Below are positions 32,414 through 40,712 of a stretch of 64,000 nucleotides of DNA, one piece after another. A program made the translations under genes and the position numbers. Where the stretch lies: positions 62,001-126,000 of the forward strand of contig NZ_JABEQN010000001.1 of the NCBI RefSeq assembly GCF_014174165.1. The letters are read 5' to 3'. The stretch comes from Gluconacetobacter dulcium. Lineage in GTDB: Bacteria; Pseudomonadota; Alphaproteobacteria; Acetobacterales; Acetobacteraceae. The notes under the pieces are model-generated. The model saw only the letters and a program-made list of their open reading frames with translations, was not told the origin of the DNA and ran no database searches. Numbering within the stretch: position 1 is the first letter of the stretch; each line of letters opens with the position of its first letter.

Positions 32414-33388
32414 ATGGCGCTGCCCGACATCCCCCCTTCTTCCGCCCCCGCCGCACCCCGGCGGCGGCGGCGGCTGATCCGCAGGCGGCGGCCCCGCGTT
32501 CGCGGCCCGTCCTTCAACCGGCTGATTCCCAACATCATGACGATGCTGGGCCTGTGCGCGGGGCTGACGGGCATGCGCTTCGCGCTGGACGACCGGTTCG
32601 GCGACGCGGCGGTGGCCCTGCTGATCGCGGCGTGCATCGACGGGCTGGACGGGCGGATCGCCCGCCTGCTGCGCGGCACCAGCCGCTTCGGCGCGGAATT
32701 CGACAGCCTGTCCGATTTCCTGTGTTTCGGCGTGGCGCCGGGCTTCGTCCTGTATCTGTGGGCGCTGCGCGACGCCGGGCGCTACGGCTACCTGCCCTGC
32801 ATCATGTTCACCGTGTGCATGGCGCTGCGTCTGGCCCGCTTCAACGCCAGCCTCGACGACACCGACAAGCCCAAATACGCCAGCAATTTCTTTACCGGCG
32901 TCCCTGCTCCCGCCGGCGCGGGGCTGGCGCTGTTTCCGCTGTTCCTGGGCCTGGAGGCCCGCAAGCTGGGCTGGAACCAGCTCTATGACATGACCCGCCT
33001 GCCCATCCTCCCGGCGCTGACGCTCAGCGGCACCGCGTTCCTGCTGGTCTCCACGCTGCCCGTCTGGTCGTTCAAGAATTTCAAGGTCCCGTCGGCCTAC
33101 GTGCTGCCGCTGATGCTGGGCACCGGGGCCTATGCCGCCGTGCTGGTCGCCGACCCGTGGGGCGCGCTGGCCGCCGCCGGCGTCATCTATATCGCCCTGC
33201 TGCCCCTCAGCCGCCGCAGCTTCCGCCGCCTGAAGCAGGAAGCCCTGGCCCTTCAGGCCGAGGAAGACGGCTCCGACGCCCCCAGCAGCCCGGCCAGCCC
33301 GGCAACGATGGCCGCGGGCGAAGGCGGACAGCCGGGGATCGACGCATCCAGCGGCGCCCGGCCCTCCAGCCCGCCCAGAACGGCATAA
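32414..33388 (+). CDS. pssA: CDP-diacylglycerol-serine O-phosphatidyltransferase
   Basis: Membrane enzyme that makes phosphatidylserine from CDP-diacylglycerol and serine. The CDP-alcohol phosphotransferase motif is complete: DGLDGRIARLL, then FGAEFDSLSD (DGx2ARx8Gx3Dx3D) near residues 75-105. About seven hydrophobic segments follow. The basic N-terminus (RRRRRLIRRRRPR) is unusually long. The usual protein ends near RRSFRRLKQEAL; the last ~45 residues are a Ser/Pro/Ala-rich tail encoded opposite the 3' end of the hyfI-like gene (136-base convergent overlap). The ATG at 32414 lies just after the psd stop. Confidence 0.94.
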   Translation: MALPDIPPSSAPAAPRRRRRLIRRRRPRVRGPSFNRLIPNIMTMLGLCAGLTGMRFALDDRFGDAAVALLIAACIDGLDGRIARLLRGTSRFGAEFDSLSDFLCFGVAPGFVLYLWALRDAGRYGYLPCIMFTVCMALRLARFNASLDDTDKPKYASNFFTGVPAPAGAGLALFPLFLGLEARKLGWNQLYDMTRLPILPALTLSGTAFLLVSTLPVWSFKNFKVPSAYVLPLMLGTGAYAAVLVADPWGALAAAGVIYIALLPLSRRSFRRLKQEALALQAEEDGSDAPSSPASPATMAAGEGGQPGIDASSGARPSSPPRTA

Positions 33389-33720
33389 TTCTCCCCGAAC
33401 GGGCCACCGTCGATCGCACAGGCCCCAACAGCGACCAGGGCCTTCCGGTCGGGCATGCCATGCCATGCCGCCTCCAGCACCGGGGCCATGGCGCGGGTCA
33501 GCGGCCCGGTCACCAGCAGCACATCCGCCAGACGCGGCGTCGTCACGAACCGCACACCCGCCCTGGGCAACGCATAGGCCGCGCCATCCAGCGCCGCGAC
33601 CTCCATCGCGCACCCCTCGCAGCCACCGGTCTCCACGTGAAACACCGCCATCGTCCCCACGGCCGGCAGGCGGATGGCGGGCCGGAATCCCCGCGTCAAG
33701 ATCGCACGCAGCAGCGCCAA
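33253..33720 (-). CDS. hyfI: HyfI/NuoB-like Fe-S small subunit of a hydrogenase-4-related complex
   Basis: A 155-aa protein like the small subunit of group 4 hydrogenases and NuoB of complex I. The proximal [4Fe-4S] ligands are all present: CxxC in GGCEGCAMEV near residue 34, Cys in VGACAIDGGPFG and Cys in PGCPPSPAAI. The rest of the fold (VLLVTGPLTRAM, NYAVLGGLEG) fits. The start is inferred as TTG at 33720, just after the hyfG-like stop, with a G-rich stretch upstream; the longer open frame reads in the wrong phase through hyfG. It is the last gene of the operon, and its 3' end overlaps pssA tail to tail. Confidence 0.85.
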   Translation of the reverse strand: MALLRAILTRGFRPAIRLPAVGTMAVFHVETGGCEGCAMEVAALDGAAYALPRAGVRFVTTPRLADVLLVTGPLTRAMAPVLEAAWHGMPDRKALVAVGACAIDGGPFGENYAVLGGLEGRAPLDASIPGCPPSPAAIVAGLAGLLGASEPSSSA

Positions 33721-33734
33721 GCCCCGTCCCCCGC

Positions 33735-35246
33735 CTAAAGATCCGCGCCGGCGGCCGACAGGCCGAACGAGCGCACGATCATCGCCACATCCTCGGCCTG
33801 CGCCCCGACCAGCACATGCTCCAGCGCACTGGCCTGCGCCAGCGCGGGGTCGCACACATGCGCCGCCGCAACGCGCCCGTCCAGAATCCGCACCCAATAC
33901 CAGACCGCCCCGCGCGGCCCCTCCGCGCAGCCCACGCCCTCGCCAACACCCGGCAGCGTCCGCGCCACAGCCGGCGCGCTGCCTGCCGCCGCCCGCAATA
34001 CCCGTGCGACGCTGCCCAGTTCCGCCAGCCGAAGGTCGATGCGCGCCGCCACATCCCCACCACGCCGCACCCCGCTATCCAGCCACTCGCGCCGATAGCC
34101 CGGCACCAGCCGACGCAGATCCTCCTCGCGCCCCGACGCCCGGCCAACCACGCCGCCCACGCCCAGCGTCCGCGCCACCAACTGTTCCAGCACACCAACG
34201 CCGGCAACGCGCATCTCCAGCCCCGGCCAGGCCCGACACCGCACCAGCCGGTCCCGAGCCGACTCCAGCAGATCCGCCACCCCGACCGCCATGGACGCCG
34301 CCGCATCGTCCATCGCCGGATCACCCGCGCCGCCAGGGCCGACGCAATCCATCAGCAGCCGATGGCCGCCAACCCGGCCACATCGCTCCAGAATCGCTTC
34401 GCGCACCCGCTCGCATTCCGCCGCCAGCGCCCCCGCCCCCGCCGGCCGCGCCACGCGCGACAGGTCGAGCAGATGGGTCGCCGCCCGCTCGATTTCCGCC
34501 AGCAGCACGCGCGAGCGCGTCGTGGCGATATCGGCCGCCTGCCCCGTCGCATTTTCGATCGCCCGGCACAGCGCCGATTGATGGGCGACCGACGCACCCG
34601 CGACAACCCGCCCGGCCAGGCGGACGGCCCCAGCCGCATCCAGTCCCGACAACCGCGCCGCCACGCCGCGATGCGCATAGCCCAGACGCCATTCCGCCTG
34701 CCCGACCGCACCGCCGCCATCCAGCGCCAGCCGCAGATGACCGGGCGCATGATGCCCGCCATCGGCCGGGCCGCTGCCCAGAATCATATGGTCCGCCGGC
34801 ACCGGCCGAAAATCCGGCGGCTCGGGCGGCCAGGCGACCGGGCCAGGCCGGTCGCTCAACGGCCAGGTCGCACTCCACAGTCCCTGATCCAGCCATGGGC
34901 GCGAATCCCGCGCGTCCATCGCCGAGAATCCCCACAGATCCTGCATGCAACGCTCGAACGGCGCGGCGGCGGGGCGCACCGGAGACAGCCCCAGATACCG
35001 GCCGCCATAGGGTTCGACACTCGCCACCAGCGGGCGTTCCCCACCATCGAGGAACAGGGCATGCACATCCCGCCCATCCGCCCACAGGGTCACGAACGGC
35101 AGCGGATCATGCCGCAGGGCCTCGACCAGATCCCGCCAGCCGTCCTCATCCAGCCGAAAGCGCCACGCCCCCGCTTCAGCCTCGCCGCGCCGGATCAGCC
35201 CGGCGGCAGTCCGTGGCAACGGATCGGCATCGGCCCGAACCGTCAT
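33735..35246 (-). CDS. hyfG: HyfG/NuoCD-like large subunit lacking Ni-Fe ligands
   Basis: A 503-aa fusion of NuoC-like (about 1-160) and NuoD/hydrogenase large-subunit-like (about 170-500) domains. NuoC features are seen in FERCMQDLWGF. NuoD features are in GPADGGHHAPGHLRLAL, WRLGYAHRGVAARL and LLAEIERAATHLLDLSRV. The N-terminal Ni-Fe motif CGxC is replaced by AGASVAHQSALCRAIENATG, and the C-terminal DPCxxC by VCDPALAQASAL, so no Ni-Fe site can form. This matches the energy-converting hydrogenase-related (Ehr) group rather than a hydrogenase. The start overlaps the hyfF-like stop (ATGA). Confidence 0.87.
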   Translation of the reverse strand: MTVRADADPLPRTAAGLIRRGEAEAGAWRFRLDEDGWRDLVEALRHDPLPFVTLWADGRDVHALFLDGGERPLVASVEPYGGRYLGLSPVRPAAAPFERCMQDLWGFSAMDARDSRPWLDQGLWSATWPLSDRPGPVAWPPEPPDFRPVPADHMILGSGPADGGHHAPGHLRLALDGGGAVGQAEWRLGYAHRGVAARLSGLDAAGAVRLAGRVVAGASVAHQSALCRAIENATGQAADIATTRSRVLLAEIERAATHLLDLSRVARPAGAGALAAECERVREAILERCGRVGGHRLLMDCVGPGGAGDPAMDDAAASMAVGVADLLESARDRLVRCRAWPGLEMRVAGVGVLEQLVARTLGVGGVVGRASGREEDLRRLVPGYRREWLDSGVRRGGDVAARIDLRLAELGSVARVLRAAAGSAPAVARTLPGVGEGVGCAEGPRGAVWYWVRILDGRVAAAHVCDPALAQASALEHVLVGAQAEDVAMIVRSFGLSAAGADL

Positions 35247-36418
35247 CGCCACCCCCACAGCACCACCACCAGACCAGCCAGCAGCAACGCCGCCACGCCA
35301 CGCCCCAGCCATCCTGTCCGAAAGGCACCGCCAACAGCCCCCGGACTACCGACCGCCACGCCAACCGCCACCGGCAACACCAGCAGCGGCGCCGCATCGC
35401 ACAACGCCACCAGCGTCAGCACAAATCCCCCGAACGGCAGGAACGGCGCATGAACCAGCGGCGCCGCCCAACCGAACGCCACGTCCTGCCGCGCCAGCGG
35501 CCCCATCAGGGCGACCGACAACATCAGGGCCACCAGCCCTGCCTGACCGGCGCCCCCGCCGGCCCCGGCCGCCATCGCCCCCAGGCCGATCATCAATCCC
35601 ACCGACAGCCGCCCCCGCCGTCCCGCCGGCGCAACGCGGATCGACAGCGCCATCAGCCACACCGTCACCAGCCCCAGCGCCATCACCCCCATCCGGTCAG
35701 GGCCTTCCGCCAGATGGCGCAGCACCGGCACGGCGGTCATGACCGGCGCCAGGGCCATGGGCGCCACGGCATCGCCCGCCGCCAGCACGACCGGCGCGGC
35801 AGGCCCCAGCCCCGCCACGGTCCCCAGCCCCAGCGTCAGCAACAGCCCGCCCAGCCCCTCCAGCCGCCCCGCCGCGTCAGACGCCGCCAGCAGCGCGGCA
35901 CCGGGCACCGCCAGCAGGGTGCCGGACAGGCTGAGGCGAAAGAGGTCCCACCCCGCCCGCGCCGCACCGCGCGTCACGGCGGTCGCCAGCGCCACCAGCA
36001 TCGCCACCCCGCCGATGGCAACGGCGCCGGAGAGCGGATCGGCGCACGCGGTGGCGGCAACCGCGCCGCCGGCCAGCCCGTGGGTCAGCACGCGCGTTCC
36101 CCGCCGACCCGGCGCCGCGTCGGCCGACAGGCTGGCCACGAACAGCGCCACCAGCGGCAGGGGCAGCAGAAGCCCCAGCGGACCAGACGGCACGGCAAAC
36201 GGGGTCGCCGGCCAGACGCTCCGCGCCGCCACCGCCAGAACGGCCAGCACCAGCCCGATCCCAGAAAGCCCGATGGCCGCCGCCCGCGCCGAAGCCGGCG
36301 AACAGGCGGCCAGCACGCCCATCGAAAGGAACGGCCAGCACAGCGCCAGCGGCATCAGCACCGGCAACGACAACACTGGCAACGACAGCATCGGGGACGA
36401 AACGGCGGCCATGCTCAC
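35243..36418 (-). CDS. hyfF: HyfF-like antiporter-type membrane subunit, shortened and degenerate
   Basis: A 391-aa polytopic membrane protein (about a dozen hydrophobic segments) at the HyfF position of the operon. The family stretch that normally reads [22 protein letters not shown] appears as GTVAGLGPAAPVVLAAGDAV-APM: the key Lys is Val, and the His and acidic/His cluster are gone. It is shorter than typical HyfF (~520 aa). The start is GTG at 36418 in a GTGA overlap with the hyfE-like gene; an ATG two codons on is possible. Proton pumping by this subunit in the usual way is doubtful. The assignment rests on position and residual similarity. Confidence 0.75.
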   Translation of the reverse strand: MSMAAVSSPMLSLPVLSLPVLMPLALCWPFLSMGVLAACSPASARAAAIGLSGIGLVLAVLAVAARSVWPATPFAVPSGPLGLLLPLPLVALFVASLSADAAPGRRGTRVLTHGLAGGAVAATACADPLSGAVAIGGVAMLVALATAVTRGAARAGWDLFRLSLSGTLLAVPGAALLAASDAAGRLEGLGGLLLTLGLGTVAGLGPAAPVVLAAGDAVAPMALAPVMTAVPVLRHLAEGPDRMGVMALGLVTVWLMALSIRVAPAGRRGRLSVGLMIGLGAMAAGAGGGAGQAGLVALMLSVALMGPLARQDVAFGWAAPLVHAPFLPFGGFVLTLVALCDAAPLLVLPVAVGVAVGSPGAVGGAFRTGWLGRGVAALLLAGLVVVLWGWR

Positions 36419-36969
36419 GTCAGTTCCCGCCCCCAGGCAATACGGCGCAGGCAGACGAAGGCGACCAGCAGCAGCGCCCCCTGCAAGGCCACCGCCCCCG
36501 CCAGCACCGCGTCCCGCCCGCCAAGGCCGGCCAGCAGCAGCAATCCATTCACCGCCCCCGCCAGCCCCGCGCACTGCCCCACCACCGAACGCCGGATCGC
36601 AGCAGCCAGAACCCCGCAGAGAATAGCCACCAGCGCCGCGATCAGATCCGGCCGGCTCACGGCATCGACCAAACCGCGCGGCACCGCCAGCACGGCCAGG
36701 ATCGTCAGCATCAGGCCCCCACCGACCCCCGATATCCGCTCCCCCGGCATCGGTGCCCGATCCTCCAGCCGCGCCAGCCCCCAGACAAGCGCCGCCGTCC
36801 CCGCCACCACGAACAGCGCCGCCAGACAGGGCCGCACCGGCGCACCATCATCCAGCGCCCCCGCCAGCAGCGTCAGGACCACAAGCCCGGCCTGCCAGGG
36901 CAACGCCCAACGCAGGCCCGACAGCACGACAGAGGCCGCGATCAGCAGGCCGGGAAGCGGCGATGCCAT
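36415..36969 (-). CDS. hyfE: HyfE-like membrane subunit
   Basis: A 184-aa membrane protein with six hydrophobic segments, e.g. LLIAASVVLSGLRWALPWQ, GGLMLTILAVLAVPRGLV, LIAALVAILCGVLAAAI and GLAGAVNGLLLLAGL. In size and position it corresponds to HyfE, which contains NuoK-like helices. Similarity is mostly compositional; the call depends on gene order (B-C-E-F-G-I). The ATG at 36969 overlaps the previous stop by one base (TGATG); a GTG one codon earlier is in frame. Confidence 0.7.
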   Translation of the reverse strand: MASPLPGLLIAASVVLSGLRWALPWQAGLVVLTLLAGALDDGAPVRPCLAALFVVAGTAALVWGLARLEDRAPMPGERISGVGGGLMLTILAVLAVPRGLVDAVSRPDLIAALVAILCGVLAAAIRRSVVGQCAGLAGAVNGLLLLAGLGGRDAVLAGAVALQGALLLVAFVCLRRIAWGRELT

Positions 36970-37916
36970 CACACGCCCTCCTGGTCCGCGAACAGCACCA
37001 CCACCGCCAGCGTCGCAAACAGCAGCGCCAGCACCAGCCGGCCGCGCGTTCCCCGCACCGAGCCCATCACCACCACCCGCGCCACGACAATTCCGGCACA
37101 GATCACCCCCGTCCGCACCAGCCACGCCACAATGGCGCCGGGCAGCGACATTGCAGCCGGCAACAGACCACCTTCCTGCAGCATCGCCAGCCCTCCCGGC
37201 CACGCCAGGTCGCCCGCCAGCGTGATCCAGGCCATCAGCATCAGATCCCGCGCCAGTTCCATGGCGGCACGGCCGCGCCCGCCCAGATCGACCATCCGCT
37301 CCGCCGCGCGCGCCTCATCGCCCGGCCCGATATCCGGCCCTGCCAGCAGCAGGGCGAGGGCCATCAACATGGCCGACACCCGCCCGCTCCCCATGTCAGG
37401 CTCGCGCAGGCGCGTCAGCAGGGCGTCAATCCCCCCATGCCCGGTCGCCATCACCGCCGCGGCCACTGTCAGCGGAAAAACCGCCTGCATCACCACCAGC
37501 GCCGCCGTGTCGCCGGCCGCCGCCAGCCCGGCCCGTGCGCCACCCGGCTCCAGCGCCGCCAGCAGCGGCAGCAGGCGGGCCAGCACCAGCAGGCCCGCTA
37601 CCGTCAGCAGGTCCGAAAGCCCGGCCCCCGGCAGGCCCAGCGCGAAGGAAGGCACCAGCAGACAGGCCGCCAGCGCGACCGCCAGCGCCATCGCGGGCAC
37701 GATCTCCACCCCGCCGGCCGCACGCACCCCATGCCGGCGCGCGCAGGACAGGATCAGCCGCCAGCGCGCCAGTACCGGCAGCCCCTCCCCGCCACCAACC
37801 CGCGCCACGCCGGCCACCAGCCCCCCCCGCACGAGCGGCGCACAGGCGACCATCAACACAAGATGCACGGCCAGCAGCGCACTCCCGGCCACCACAATCA
37901 CCACCCACGACATCAT
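36969..37916 (-). CDS. hyfC: HyfC/NuoH-like membrane subunit, degenerate
   Basis: A 315-aa polytopic protein at the HyfC (NuoH) position. It has around eight membrane segments. The cytoplasmic loops of NuoH/HyfC that bear conserved acids are altered: the region normally containing a SSREA-type loop and a Glu-Pro helix reads GDTAALVVMQAVFPLTVAAAV, and the usual HEAMVLEYSGRDLAL appears as ERMVDLGGRGRAAMELARDLML. It begins ATG ATG at 37916 in an ATGA overlap with the hyfB-like gene. It should anchor the Fe-S subunits to the membrane arm. Confidence 0.75.
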   Translation of the reverse strand: MMSWVVIVVAGSALLAVHLVLMVACAPLVRGGLVAGVARVGGGEGLPVLARWRLILSCARRHGVRAAGGVEIVPAMALAVALAACLLVPSFALGLPGAGLSDLLTVAGLLVLARLLPLLAALEPGGARAGLAAAGDTAALVVMQAVFPLTVAAAVMATGHGGIDALLTRLREPDMGSGRVSAMLMALALLLAGPDIGPGDEARAAERMVDLGGRGRAAMELARDLMLMAWITLAGDLAWPGGLAMLQEGGLLPAAMSLPGAIVAWLVRTGVICAGIVVARVVVMGSVRGTRGRLVLALLFATLAVVVLFADQEGV

Positions 37917-39682
37917 CGCGAATGGCCCCATATCCGGAGCAGCGCCGCCACGGCCAACCACAGCAGCACCAGCCCCATGGCATGGCGCGACACCCAGGCC
38001 ACCCCAACCTCCATCAGCACCGATACCCGCCTCCCGCCATCCCGGCCCCAGCGGACCACCCGCCGGATACGCCGCGACACCGCACGCCGCCCCATGCCCC
38101 ACGCCAGCACACCGGCAAACTGCGCCGGGCCGGCCTGCGCCACCGGCTCGCCGAACGGCATCCAGGGCGGCGATGGCGGCGCCCCCTCCATCCAGGCCGG
38201 CGCCGGGCGCGACGGCACCGTGTTCCCCAGACGCGACAATGCCAGCACCAGAGCACCCGCCAGCGCCAGCAGCGCGACAATACCAGCTGGATACAGCACG
38301 CCGCCGCCCCCCGGCGCGGCAAGAGCCAGCCAGTCCGGCCGCGCACCGGACGGAATCGGACCCTTCAGGCCAGCAGCAGCCCAGCCAGCCCCCCGCGTCA
38401 GCCACAACCAGACCCCAGGCACCAGCACCACGCTCACAGCCCCACCCAGGCAGGCCGCCGGCACGGCCAGCCGCCCCGACGCGGGGTCGGTCGCACCGGC
38501 CGCACGCGGTGTGCGCGGCCGGCCCAGCACCAGACAGGCCAACAGGCGCACCGCCGCCAGGATCAGCAATCCACAGACCAGCCCCACGCCGGCCAGTACC
38601 GCCAGCAGCGGCATCGCCCCCGCCAGCCCCTCGGCGCGCGGCAGCGCCAGCAGCGACTGCACCAGCAGCCACGCCACCGCAAACCCGCCGGAGGGCGGCA
38701 GCGCACACACCCCGGCCAGCGCCAGAGCCAGCATGGCCGACGCCTTCGGCATCAGGGCCGCCAGCCCCCCGACACGCGCCAGACCCAGCGAACCCGCCGC
38801 CTCGGCCATCTGCGCCAGGGTCAGGATGGCGGCCAGAACCGCCAGCCCCACCCCACCCACCAGCAGCATCAGGCCACGAAATGCCCCCAGCGCCAGCAAC
38901 GGCAGGTCATCCGCGCGCCCGGTGACCACCAGCCCCACCAGCACCAGCGCCATGCCGCCCCATCCGTTCAACAGGCCGGCCACCACCCGTCCGGCATCGC
39001 GCGCCCCCCTGGCCCGCCAGCATCCCGTCAGCGCCAGCACCAGCCCCGCAACGACCACGCCACCGCCCCACATGGCGCCGACCGGCTCCACCGGCCAGTC
39101 GACCAGCATCCGCACCGCAAGGCAGAGTCCGACCGCCAGCCCGGCCAGATGCGCCACCCCGGCGGGCGCCCCATGCCGCGCGCCGGACAATGGCCGCAGC
39201 GACAGCCCCATCAACGCCGAAGCGGCCAGCAGAGCAGGAAGCGGCAGCACGATCAGCCGCCAGCCGCCCGAACCCGACAGCAGCGCGGTCGCGACCGCAA
39301 CGCCCGCACTCCCCCAGGCCACCATGCCACGCGGCACGGCGCCCTCGGCGCGCAGGAGAGGCAGCAACCCCGCCGCGCCGATACAGAACAGGACAGGATT
39401 GCCGGTACCGACCGTCAGCGCCGCCCCCGCCAGCACCGGCCCCCGCGCCCCCGAGGCCAGACCGGCCACCGACAGCATCATCACGAAGGGCAGCGAGAGC
39501 GCATCGACCCGCAACAGGGCCACCGGCCCCACTGGGGAGCCCGCCATCAGGGCCGACCCAGGTGGCAGACAGGCCATCGCCAAAGCCAGCACGAGAGCCA
39601 GCCCCCACCCCGCCCGCGCCGCCTGGGGCACCGCGAACCGGGGCATCAGGCCGTCCAGCAGCAGCACCGACAGCACAAGCAT
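37913..39682 (-). CDS. hyfB: HyfB-like NuoL/M/N-family membrane subunit, degenerate
   Basis: A 589-aa protein with about 14 membrane helices and the family entry motif RVDALSLPFVMML near residue 60. The C-terminus WMEGAPPSPPWMPFGEPV resembles the HyfB tail (WdcGy...Mqyt). The stretch that in HyfB holds GxKAGxxPLHVWLPRAHPxAPSxVSALMSG reads ALMGLSLRPLSGARHGAPAG-VAHLAGLAVGL: both conserved lysines and the WLPRAH block are missing. It is the first gene of the six-gene operon. No other start is available between the upstream TGA and the ATG at 39682, and no strong ribosome-binding site is seen. Confidence 0.82.
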   Translation of the reverse strand: MLVLSVLLLDGLMPRFAVPQAARAGWGLALVLALAMACLPPGSALMAGSPVGPVALLRVDALSLPFVMMLSVAGLASGARGPVLAGAALTVGTGNPVLFCIGAAGLLPLLRAEGAVPRGMVAWGSAGVAVATALLSGSGGWRLIVLPLPALLAASALMGLSLRPLSGARHGAPAGVAHLAGLAVGLCLAVRMLVDWPVEPVGAMWGGGVVVAGLVLALTGCWRARGARDAGRVVAGLLNGWGGMALVLVGLVVTGRADDLPLLALGAFRGLMLLVGGVGLAVLAAILTLAQMAEAAGSLGLARVGGLAALMPKASAMLALALAGVCALPPSGGFAVAWLLVQSLLALPRAEGLAGAMPLLAVLAGVGLVCGLLILAAVRLLACLVLGRPRTPRAAGATDPASGRLAVPAACLGGAVSVVLVPGVWLWLTRGAGWAAAGLKGPIPSGARPDWLALAAPGGGGVLYPAGIVALLALAGALVLALSRLGNTVPSRPAPAWMEGAPPSPPWMPFGEPVAQAGPAQFAGVLAWGMGRRAVSRRIRRVVRWGRDGGRRVSVLMEVGVAWVSRHAMGLVLLWLAVAALLRIWGHSR

Positions 39683-39752
39683 GAGAAACAGCGGCAGGAT
39701 GGCCCCATCCCCGAATCACGGGTCCGATCGAGCCCGCATCAAACCACGCCGT

Positions 39753-40607
39753 TCAGATCATGGCGAGAGGGACCTTGCGGCGCGGCGGCGGGATCGACCG
39801 GTCGATCGCGTCCAGGTCATGCTGTGTCAGCACCAGTTCGGTCGCCGCGACATTCTCGCGCTGATGGTCCGGACTGCCCGCCTTGGGGATCGCCAGCATC
39901 CCAGGCTGCCGCAGCACCCAGGCCAGCGCCACCTGAGCGGGCGTGGCTGGCCCCAGACTGGTCTCGTGCTCCCCCGCGATCCGCTGCAACACCGGCTGGC
40001 GCAGCAGGTCGCCGCCCTGCCCCAGCGGAGAATAGGCCATGGTCACGATGGCGCGCCGCCGGTCCGCCTCCAGCAGATCGAACTCCACCCCGCGATAATC
40101 CAGGCTGTAGAGAATCTGGTTGGCGGCACAGGCCCCCGGCGCGGCAACCCGCGCCAGATCGTCCAGGTCCCCGATATCGAAATTCGACACGCCCCAGGCG
40201 CCGATCAGCCCTTCCCTCTTGAGCTGCTCGAAGGCCCCGACCGTTTCCTCCAGAGGCACGCCCCCTCGCCAGTGCAGCAGATACAGATCGATCCGGTCGG
40301 TACCCAGCCGCCGCAGCGATGCCCGGCAACGCTCCGCCACCCCGGCACGCGAAGCGTTGGACGGCAGGATCTTCGTAACCAGGAAAACCTCGTCCCGCCG
40401 CCCGGCGATCGCCTCGCCCACCAGCCGTTCCGACCGCCCGGCGCCGTACATCTCGGCGGTATCGATCACCCGCAGCCCCCTATCCAGGCCCAGCCGCAGG
40501 CTGGCGATCTCCTGCGCGCGCCGCTCGGCACGATCACCCAGCGCCCAGGTGCCCATTCCCAGCGCCGGCAGGCACATGCCACCGGGAAACGTGACGGAAG
40601 TCATCAT
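39753..40607 (-). CDS. aldo/keto reductase (second copy)
   Basis: A 284-aa aldo/keto reductase of the YeaE/DkgA-like subgroup. The tetrad is visible: Asp and Tyr in VIDTAEMYGAGRSERLV near residues 47-60, Lys in VFLVTKILPSN near 80 and His in LYLLHWRGGVP near 112. Cofactor-binding features lie in PLGQGG, IPKAGSPDHQREN and the last helix. The ATG at 40607 is preceded by AGGAG at 8 bases. The substrate is unknown. It lies 70 bases upstream of the hyfB-like gene on the same strand and could be co-transcribed with that operon, though no functional tie is known. Confidence 0.9.
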   Translation of the reverse strand: MMTSVTFPGGMCLPALGMGTWALGDRAERRAQEIASLRLGLDRGLRVIDTAEMYGAGRSERLVGEAIAGRRDEVFLVTKILPSNASRAGVAERCRASLRRLGTDRIDLYLLHWRGGVPLEETVGAFEQLKREGLIGAWGVSNFDIGDLDDLARVAAPGACAANQILYSLDYRGVEFDLLEADRRRAIVTMAYSPLGQGGDLLRQPVLQRIAGEHETSLGPATPAQVALAWVLRQPGMLAIPKAGSPDHQRENVAATELVLTQHDLDAIDRSIPPPRRKVPLAMI

Positions 40608-40712
40608 GCCGCGCGCTCCTCCTCGCAAGTTCCCCAGACAAGTTCCCCAGACAAACGTCCCGGAGACCGATGATCTTCGGGCATCGAGGGGAAGCACGTC
40701 CGGACCCGCCTT

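Follow-up and report, generated by a model that had tools for sequence, protein, structure and literature searches.

A Hyq-Type Operon of Acetic Acid Bacteria in Which One Branch Has Probably Lost the Proton Path but Kept the Subunits

A 64,000-nucleotide stretch of Gluconacetobacter dulcium DNA (assembly GCF_014174165.1, contig NZ_JABEQN010000001.1, positions 62,001 to 126,000), here called the window, carries six close-set genes on its minus strand, from 39682 down to 33253, in the order B-C-E-F-G-I. Judged by gene order and by the tree of the large subunit G, this operon almost certainly descends from that of the six-subunit Hyq complex (hyqBCEFGI) and is its form in acetic acid bacteria. 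Our main reading, to which we assign a probability of about 90 percent, is that three things were lost on a single stem branch within the Acetobacteraceae, namely the antiporter-type Glu/Lys/His path, the E-channel loop from the NuoH-like subunit, and some of the pocket of G; the subunits and the antiporter folds stayed, as did, with rare exceptions, the four cluster cysteines of the small subunit I, and the complex is maintained by selection. A question in complex I research is what the individual membrane-arm residues are needed for, and this clade offers a natural experiment: preceded on the tree by forms stripped in part, it has dropped nearly all of the path residues and yet retains the machine, even in genomes that lack NuoD. 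Assembly of a complex-I-like machine would thereby be separated from proton pumping.

Every membrane subunit of the window is affected. In the antiporter-fold subunit B (hyqB/hyfB-like; 37913..39682, minus strand like all six genes; 589 residues from an ATG), the equivalents of HycC E135, K239, H332, K336, and E391 are lost. The NuoH-like subunit C (hyqC/hyfC-like; 36969..37916) has the E-channel loop (HycD E199-E203) deleted and Gln at the equivalent of HycD E138. Subunit E (hyqE/hyfE-like; 36415..36972) has V for HyfE E159 and G for K68, and in the second antiporter-fold subunit, F (hyqF/hyfF-like; 35243..36418), HyfF E143, K232, H347, and K351 are replaced by G, V, V, and G. The earlier note on this window, made from its letters, did not mention any loss of proton-path residues from the membrane subunits.

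Subunit by subunit, the window and 120 loci were aligned with Escherichia coli Hyf and Hyc. Classes and trees rest on 115 rows in which G has 380 residues or more (seven rows with a shorter G were excluded). Limits drawn at 80 percent and at 40 percent of 19 path residues sort these into 69 dismantled and 39 intact rows (two of the latter being E. coli), with 6 rows intermediate and 1 lacking data. The dismantled members come from Acetobacter, Gluconobacter, Komagataeibacter, Gluconacetobacter, Novacetimonas, Saccharibacter, Rhodopila, and metagenome-assembled genomes; the intact ones come from Bradyrhizobium, Hyphomicrobium, Thalassobaculum, Siccirubricoccus, Pseudoroseomonas, Limobrevibacterium, and further metagenome-assembled genomes. 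In the residue counts, which omit the E. coli rows and any row whose subunit was not detectable, HycC-type E135, H222, K239, H328, H332, K336, and E391 are each present in 32/32 intact and 0/57 dismantled B sequences, and HyfF K232, H347, and K351 each in 37/37 intact and 0/68 dismantled F sequences. HyfE E159 is found in 35/35 against 0/59, and HycD E203 in 32/32 against 0/65, its column being a gap in 64 of the 65; at the positions of HycD E199 and E201, intact rows lack Glu as well. HyfF E143 (37/37) and HycD E138, E189, and E206 (32/32 each) are likewise complete in the intact class.

This contrast is partly built in, the classes having been cut on 19 such positions, but several results are independent of the cut: the gap between the classes (only 6 of 115 rows fall into it), HycC H222, H328, and E391, the pocket of G, and the lost HyqG cysteines described below. 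Because many dismantled membrane-subunit rows align at only 20–35 percent identity to the window, Lys, Glu, and His were also counted in hydrophobic stretches without any alignment. The medians for B, F, C, and E were 14, 13, 10, and 8 in intact forms and 6, 5, 4, and 3 in dismantled forms, with overlapping ranges; the window has one such residue in F and none in E. At the same time, the predicted folds are intact. The AlphaFold2 model of B (predicted local distance difference test, pLDDT, 83.6; predicted template modeling score, pTM, 0.84) has as its top match in the PDB a chain of formate hydrogenlyase (FHL; 7z0t_C, TMq score 0.63), and that of F (pLDDT 80.3, pTM 0.82) matches antiporter-like chains of complex I, from TMq 0.67 (8qby_M) to 0.72 (4he8_I). 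These confident models indicate that the antiporter folds of both subunits are retained. The residues removed differ in what they do in E. coli, judging by the excerpts of PMC9474812 that matched our literature search: mutants of HycD E138 and of E199/E201/E203 lost 98–99 percent of H2 production, whereas several antiporter residues of HycC could be mutated without significant loss, so the losses are not all of equal weight. The earlier note had seen in this operon an extra complex-I-like module; if an energy-converting one was meant, that view finds no support, most energy-converting residues being gone from the membrane subunits.

The losses trace to one place in the tree. In a tree of G, with states scored only on B, C, E, and F, all 69 dismantled rows lie behind one branch (Shimodaira–Hasegawa-like approximate likelihood ratio test, SH-aLRT, 99) that is nested among intact Acetobacteraceae. 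Three in-between rows (L122, L028, L022) branch directly beneath the dismantled clade; the other three (L047, L053, and L111, the last a partial sequence) fall elsewhere, among intact rows. Some genomes occur twice across the two sets of loci that were pooled, and a reduced tree of 87 rows, from which 28 duplicate or long-branched rows had been removed, controls for this and again gives a single dismantled branch. Both are quick trees without bootstrap.

The large subunit G (hyqG/hyfG-like, NuoC-NuoD type; 33735..35246, 503 residues) was aligned with HycE, HyfG, and NuoCD to place the cysteine pairs that hold Ni-Fe. The first site (CGIC) is VAGA here (residues 215–218; 34593..34604, minus strand), and the second (CYSC) is SAAG (residues 497–500; 33747..33758, minus strand), HycE SLDPCYSC aligning with SFGLSAAG at the C-terminus, so both cysteines of that pair are gone. 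The earlier note was right that both pairs are lost, although it set the second at DPALAQAS, a misalignment, for that motif pairs with the upstream AATYAN of HycE. Nor are the ligands shifted but intact, a possibility that was rejected because neither pair occurs in any aligned dismantled or intact relative. No HypA (PF01155) and no HycI-type protease (PF01750) were found in a whole-genome search, in which other hyp genes were not included; the claim that maturation genes are lacking thus holds for these two. The pocket is altered as well. The position of HycE E193 holds Glu in 37/37 intact rows and in 9/69 dismantled rows, and that of D529, reported as strictly conserved in complex I (PMC9474812, as excerpted), holds Asn in 37/37 intact and Gly in 57/69 dismantled rows. 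HycE H284, R395, and E437 are still present in 63, 62, and 58 of the 69. At the positions of three HyqG cysteines (258, 491, and 497 of Azorhizobium caulinodans) the window has A, I, and L, and none of the three occurs in any of the 69 dismantled rows; these columns were placed by position through L055 and Bradyrhizobium rather than through the Azorhizobium sequence. Intact forms do not all have the full triad either: it occurs in just 20 of 39 rows (the two E. coli rows included).

The small [4Fe-4S] subunit I (hyqI/hyfI-like; 33253..33720, 155 residues from a TTG) gives the opposite picture. Alignment bears out the earlier statement that it keeps all four cluster cysteines (residues 34, 37, 101, and 131), and the same four are found in 66/67 dismantled and 37/37 intact rows. 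An apparent loss of this subunit from two genomes was rejected, since the gene had moved: it is relocated or split off yet kept in both, with all four cysteines in G022 and the pattern SCCC in the other. In the latter genome, G001, the operon is split (L029, L149), with the small subunit beside pssA-psd and B, C, and G on another contig, with no E, F, or I found beside them.

Selection was estimated from the ratio of nonsynonymous to synonymous substitution rates (dN/dS). Against seven Gluconacetobacter loci the window gives 0.29–0.46 for B, 0.36–0.58 for C, 0.04–0.41 for E, 0.20–0.42 for F, 0.15–0.33 for G, and 0.10–0.24 for I; four neighbor genes give 0.03–0.30. Seven Acetobacter pairs give 0.06–0.26 for B and C and 0.006–0.19 for E, F, G, and I (medians of the six genes 0.07–0.21), and three to four Gluconobacter pairs, with B not usable, have medians of 0.10–0.21; synonymous divergence is high in both genera (medians 0.67–0.88 and 1.15–1.66, respectively), so these ratios are rough. 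Six intact Bradyrhizobium pairs span 0–0.16 (medians 0.05–0.14), and the single intact Pseudoroseomonas pair spans 0.24–0.39. The operon is under purifying selection, and its strength in Acetobacter is about equal to that on the intact Bradyrhizobium copies.

The operon is also widespread. A search of the Acetobacteraceae with G at 0.001 matched 294/299 genomes, NuoD being counted in, and a cut at 1e-20 left a G-like protein in 257/299. Profiles found the six genes in their own frames and in the order B-C-E-F-G-I at 27/40 loci of a first set and at 53/80 of a second, the best 80 of 375 relatives and hence biased toward forms near the window; these counts cover both kinds of complex, and the remainder includes cut-off contigs and subunits too diverged for the profile. 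The earlier note had asked whether the operon is conserved in the family or absent from all close relatives with signs of decay, and it proves widely conserved, six genes in order at many loci. The closest match among those best 80 is Gluconacetobacter liquefaciens DSM 5603, at 97 percent for the small subunit and 96 percent for G. At 11 loci, in Gluconobacter and others, B gave no profile match, and a membrane frame of 436–731 residues (286 in L100) stands in its place, recognized by position and hydrophobicity only. A loss of B in Gluconobacter was accordingly rejected, with frames of 436–452 residues and 12–15 hydrophobic segments at 4/5 loci and the 286-residue frame of L100 at the fifth, although homology is not proven.

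Elsewhere in these genomes, G is the sole PF00346 protein in 18 of 26 searched, all 18 being 1.9–2.7 Mb in size, and NuoD is therefore absent there; for Gluconobacter oxydans, the matched excerpt of PMC3751514 reports that complex I is absent. Among 24 chosen operon-bearing genomes, nifH was above the cut-off in 4 and not in 20, and HypA was not found in 21; nifH was not found above the cut-off in the G. dulcium genome either. Hyq-type operons are thus extended to many genomes without nifH, beyond the link to nitrogen fixation drawn in 2010 (PMC2930871, as excerpted). The G. dulcium genome also holds two more 49-kDa-type (PF00346) proteins (G000:C7:100051-100863 and G000:C3:230661-231473), in frames of 438 and of 597 residues, the latter of NuoCD length, which suggests two putative complex I sets in this Gluconacetobacter.

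The operon is tightly built, and the earlier description of six counterparts in close succession is confirmed. Start and stop codons overlap at four of the five junctions, as ATGA at B/C (37916), GTGA at C/E (36972), GTGA at E/F (36418), and ATGA at F/G (35246), as the note had it; G and I are instead separated by 14 bases, I starting with a TTG at 33720. Subunit E may start at the GTG at 36972 or at an ATG at 36969, and F, with 389 residues from the ATG at 36412, could also start at the GTG at 36418. G scores 60.4 bits against PF00346 (the complex I 49-kDa family) and I scores 89.2 bits against PF01058 (the 20-kDa family), both above cut-off, and the closest solved relative of G is HycE of E. 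coli FHL (7z0s_E, E 3.9e-22). A Pfam search at E 0.01 gave no family for B, C, E, or F, and of these four only B matched in NCBIfam, as hydrogenase-4 subunit B at 49.9 bits, far under the model cut-off; C and E were recognized by family profile. A scan upstream of the operon gave no promoter-like site and 2 terminator-like sites, against a chance mean of 1.5. The frame upstream of B presumably encodes an aldo/keto reductase, by its resemblance. At the other end, the small-subunit gene overlaps tail to tail, by 136 bases (33253–33388), with a convergent pssA-like plus-strand frame ending at 33388. This neighbor and the next are presumably pssA and psd; the pair so named adjoins the operon at 55/68 dismantled and 0/37 intact loci, which differ in length. 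A plus-strand open frame of 1306 residues (36753–40673) runs antisense to the operon, which most likely just reflects high G+C content.

A number of observations weigh against the preferred explanation, the mode of action proposed below included. Path residues survive in some dismantled rows (HyfF E143 in 13/68; HycD E138, E189, and E206 in 10, 6, and 15 of 65), and Asp or Arg stands at some path positions, for example Arg at HycC H222 in 25/57. With every charged residue in hydrophobic stretches counted, intact and dismantled forms differ less (31 and 26 for B, 23 and 16 for F, 19 and 16 for C, 18 and 11 for E), and the window's own B has 31, the same as the intact median. The change at HycE D529 to Gly speaks against complex-I-like quinone chemistry. 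The cluster is not needed everywhere: in three genomes of the g100 genus (G100, G157, G200; L052, L143-L145) the small-subunit gene is still there but encodes only one of the four cysteines, the other operon genes being found in L052 and L151, and G001 has SCCC. Nor is the operon immune to loss. The large subunit is missing at 1e-20 from 42/299 family genomes; in G126 (L153, a 2.0 Mb genome) the copy is broken up, with G over three frames and no match for B or I, and is decaying; and in Gluconacetobacter, B and C are constrained but are looser and faster-evolving than the neighbor genes. Finally, the literature search found no expression, protein, or mutant report on the dismantled form.

What the remaining complex does is less certain than how it arose. 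There is perhaps an even chance that a complex-I-like pump has been turned into a "pseudo-complex," its subunits and folds selected, its proton channels and much of its pocket erased on one branch, and the one-cluster scaffold put to a non-pumping role. A more specific proposal, favored here but held more tentatively, is that this scaffold in the membrane relays or senses electrons through its one cluster. The six subunits would assemble with B, C, E, and F forming the scaffold that anchors them in the membrane, and the single [4Fe-4S] cluster putatively bound by I, held on G, would pass or sense electrons, with a cytosolic carrier or the quinone pool as candidate partners; the complex would neither pump protons nor handle H2. 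A purely structural or regulatory role, in which there is no redox step, the cluster is only structural, and the six subunits organize another membrane system (an oxidase, a dehydrogenase, or lipid synthesis), seems unlikely. Such a role would suit the lost or variable path residues and pocket, the g100-genus genomes that retained the genes without three of the four cysteines, and the fixed place beside pssA-psd, but that position may be plain vertical inheritance, and the four cysteines persist in nearly all dismantled rows and in the moved copy of G022 despite its changed surroundings, as do HycE H284, R395, and E437 in most rows.

Slow decay, with the operon as hydrogenase-4-like debris not yet deleted, is improbable. 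The broken copy of G126, the higher dN/dS of B and C in Gluconacetobacter, and the genomes without a match at 1e-20 are what decay would leave, and in G247 (L041, same genus) B and C match one frame while C and G are each split over two, which may be sequencing error or decay. Debris would hardly stay in frame and in order at so many loci, show the low Acetobacter ratios, persist in 18 small genomes without NuoD, or keep its small subunit after relocation. Least probable of all is a working energy-converting complex, oxidizing H2 or another donor with quinone and pumping through residues elsewhere. The predicted antiporter folds, the non-canonical charged residues that persist in B, the dispensability of several HycC residues for H2 production (PMC9474812, as excerpted), and the mutants of the Azorhizobium relative that change H2 exchange (PMC3357923) would all fit, but there are no Ni-Fe ligands, HypA and HycI were not found in the genome, Lys, Glu, and His are depleted from hydrophobic stretches, and the E-channel loop, whose mutation abolishes nearly all H2 production in E. 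coli, is deleted. The preferred reading, a stripped but selected complex, makes the operon a testable candidate for a new function in the bacteria with which vinegar and cellulose are made, and it bears on the question of how Hyq, having no Ni-Fe site, can act on H2.

Among described systems, Hyq of A. caulinodans is the closest. It has the same six genes, hyqBCEFGI, without A or D (PMC2650096, PMC3357923, PMC2930871), and the window operon shows this order without A, D, or H. HyqG, like G of the window, is a NuoC-NuoD fusion (about 504 residues) without the CxxC pairs, and HyqI, like I, has four cluster cysteines. In HyqG of eight genera, both CxxC motifs are absent and three cysteines are conserved (PMC3357923, 2012), and hyq mutants of Azorhizobium are altered in H2 exchange; a 2010 paper described Hyq-type operons as co-selected with nitrogen fixation (PMC2930871). 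The window form differs in lacking the three cysteines called conserved in 2012 (0/69 dismantled rows keep any), in lacking the proton-path residues, and in its gene neighborhood, and the nif-regulon membership of hyq, with its activator hyqR, is not matched, there being no nifH above the cut-off (hyqR was not profile-searched). Because the cysteine triad and the nif link both fail, the window form is not classed as a Hyq endo-hydrogenase. The earlier note had named the energy-converting hydrogenase-related (Ehr) complexes, known for example from Geobacter and Margulisbacteria, which share a group-4-related large subunit without Ni-Fe ligands and are suspected of using antiporter-like subunits to link redox reactions with charge transport (PMC7894505, PMC6349859). 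The operon does belong among the complexes without Ni-Fe loosely called Ehr, though Azorhizobium Hyq is the closer described relative, and in the window the antiporter-like folds appear to be kept with the canonical Glu/Lys/His lost. Among solved structures, the nearest to G (HycE) and to the B model (7z0t_C) belong with E. coli hydrogenase-4 and FHL (Hyf, Hyc), but the window has no Ni-Fe site, no HyfA, D, or H at the locus, no proton-path residues, and, genome-wide, no HypA or HycI that could be found; neither CxxC pair of group 4 [NiFe]-hydrogenases is present in its G. With complex I (Nuo) it has in common a core of NuoB-, NuoC-D-, and NuoH-like and antiporter-like subunits, whereas its locus encodes just six subunits and no NADH module, and it is kept in 18 searched genomes without NuoD. 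The literature matches listed contain nothing on the operon in acetic acid bacteria (the term "hydrogenase" is not found in PMC2765452 or PMC3751514) and no report of the dismantled form, subscription papers being mostly outside the search. The loss of Ni-Fe in the Hyq lineage predates the dismantled clade and was already published; what is new here is the dismantled membrane arm and the loss of the three HyqG cysteines, together in one clade.

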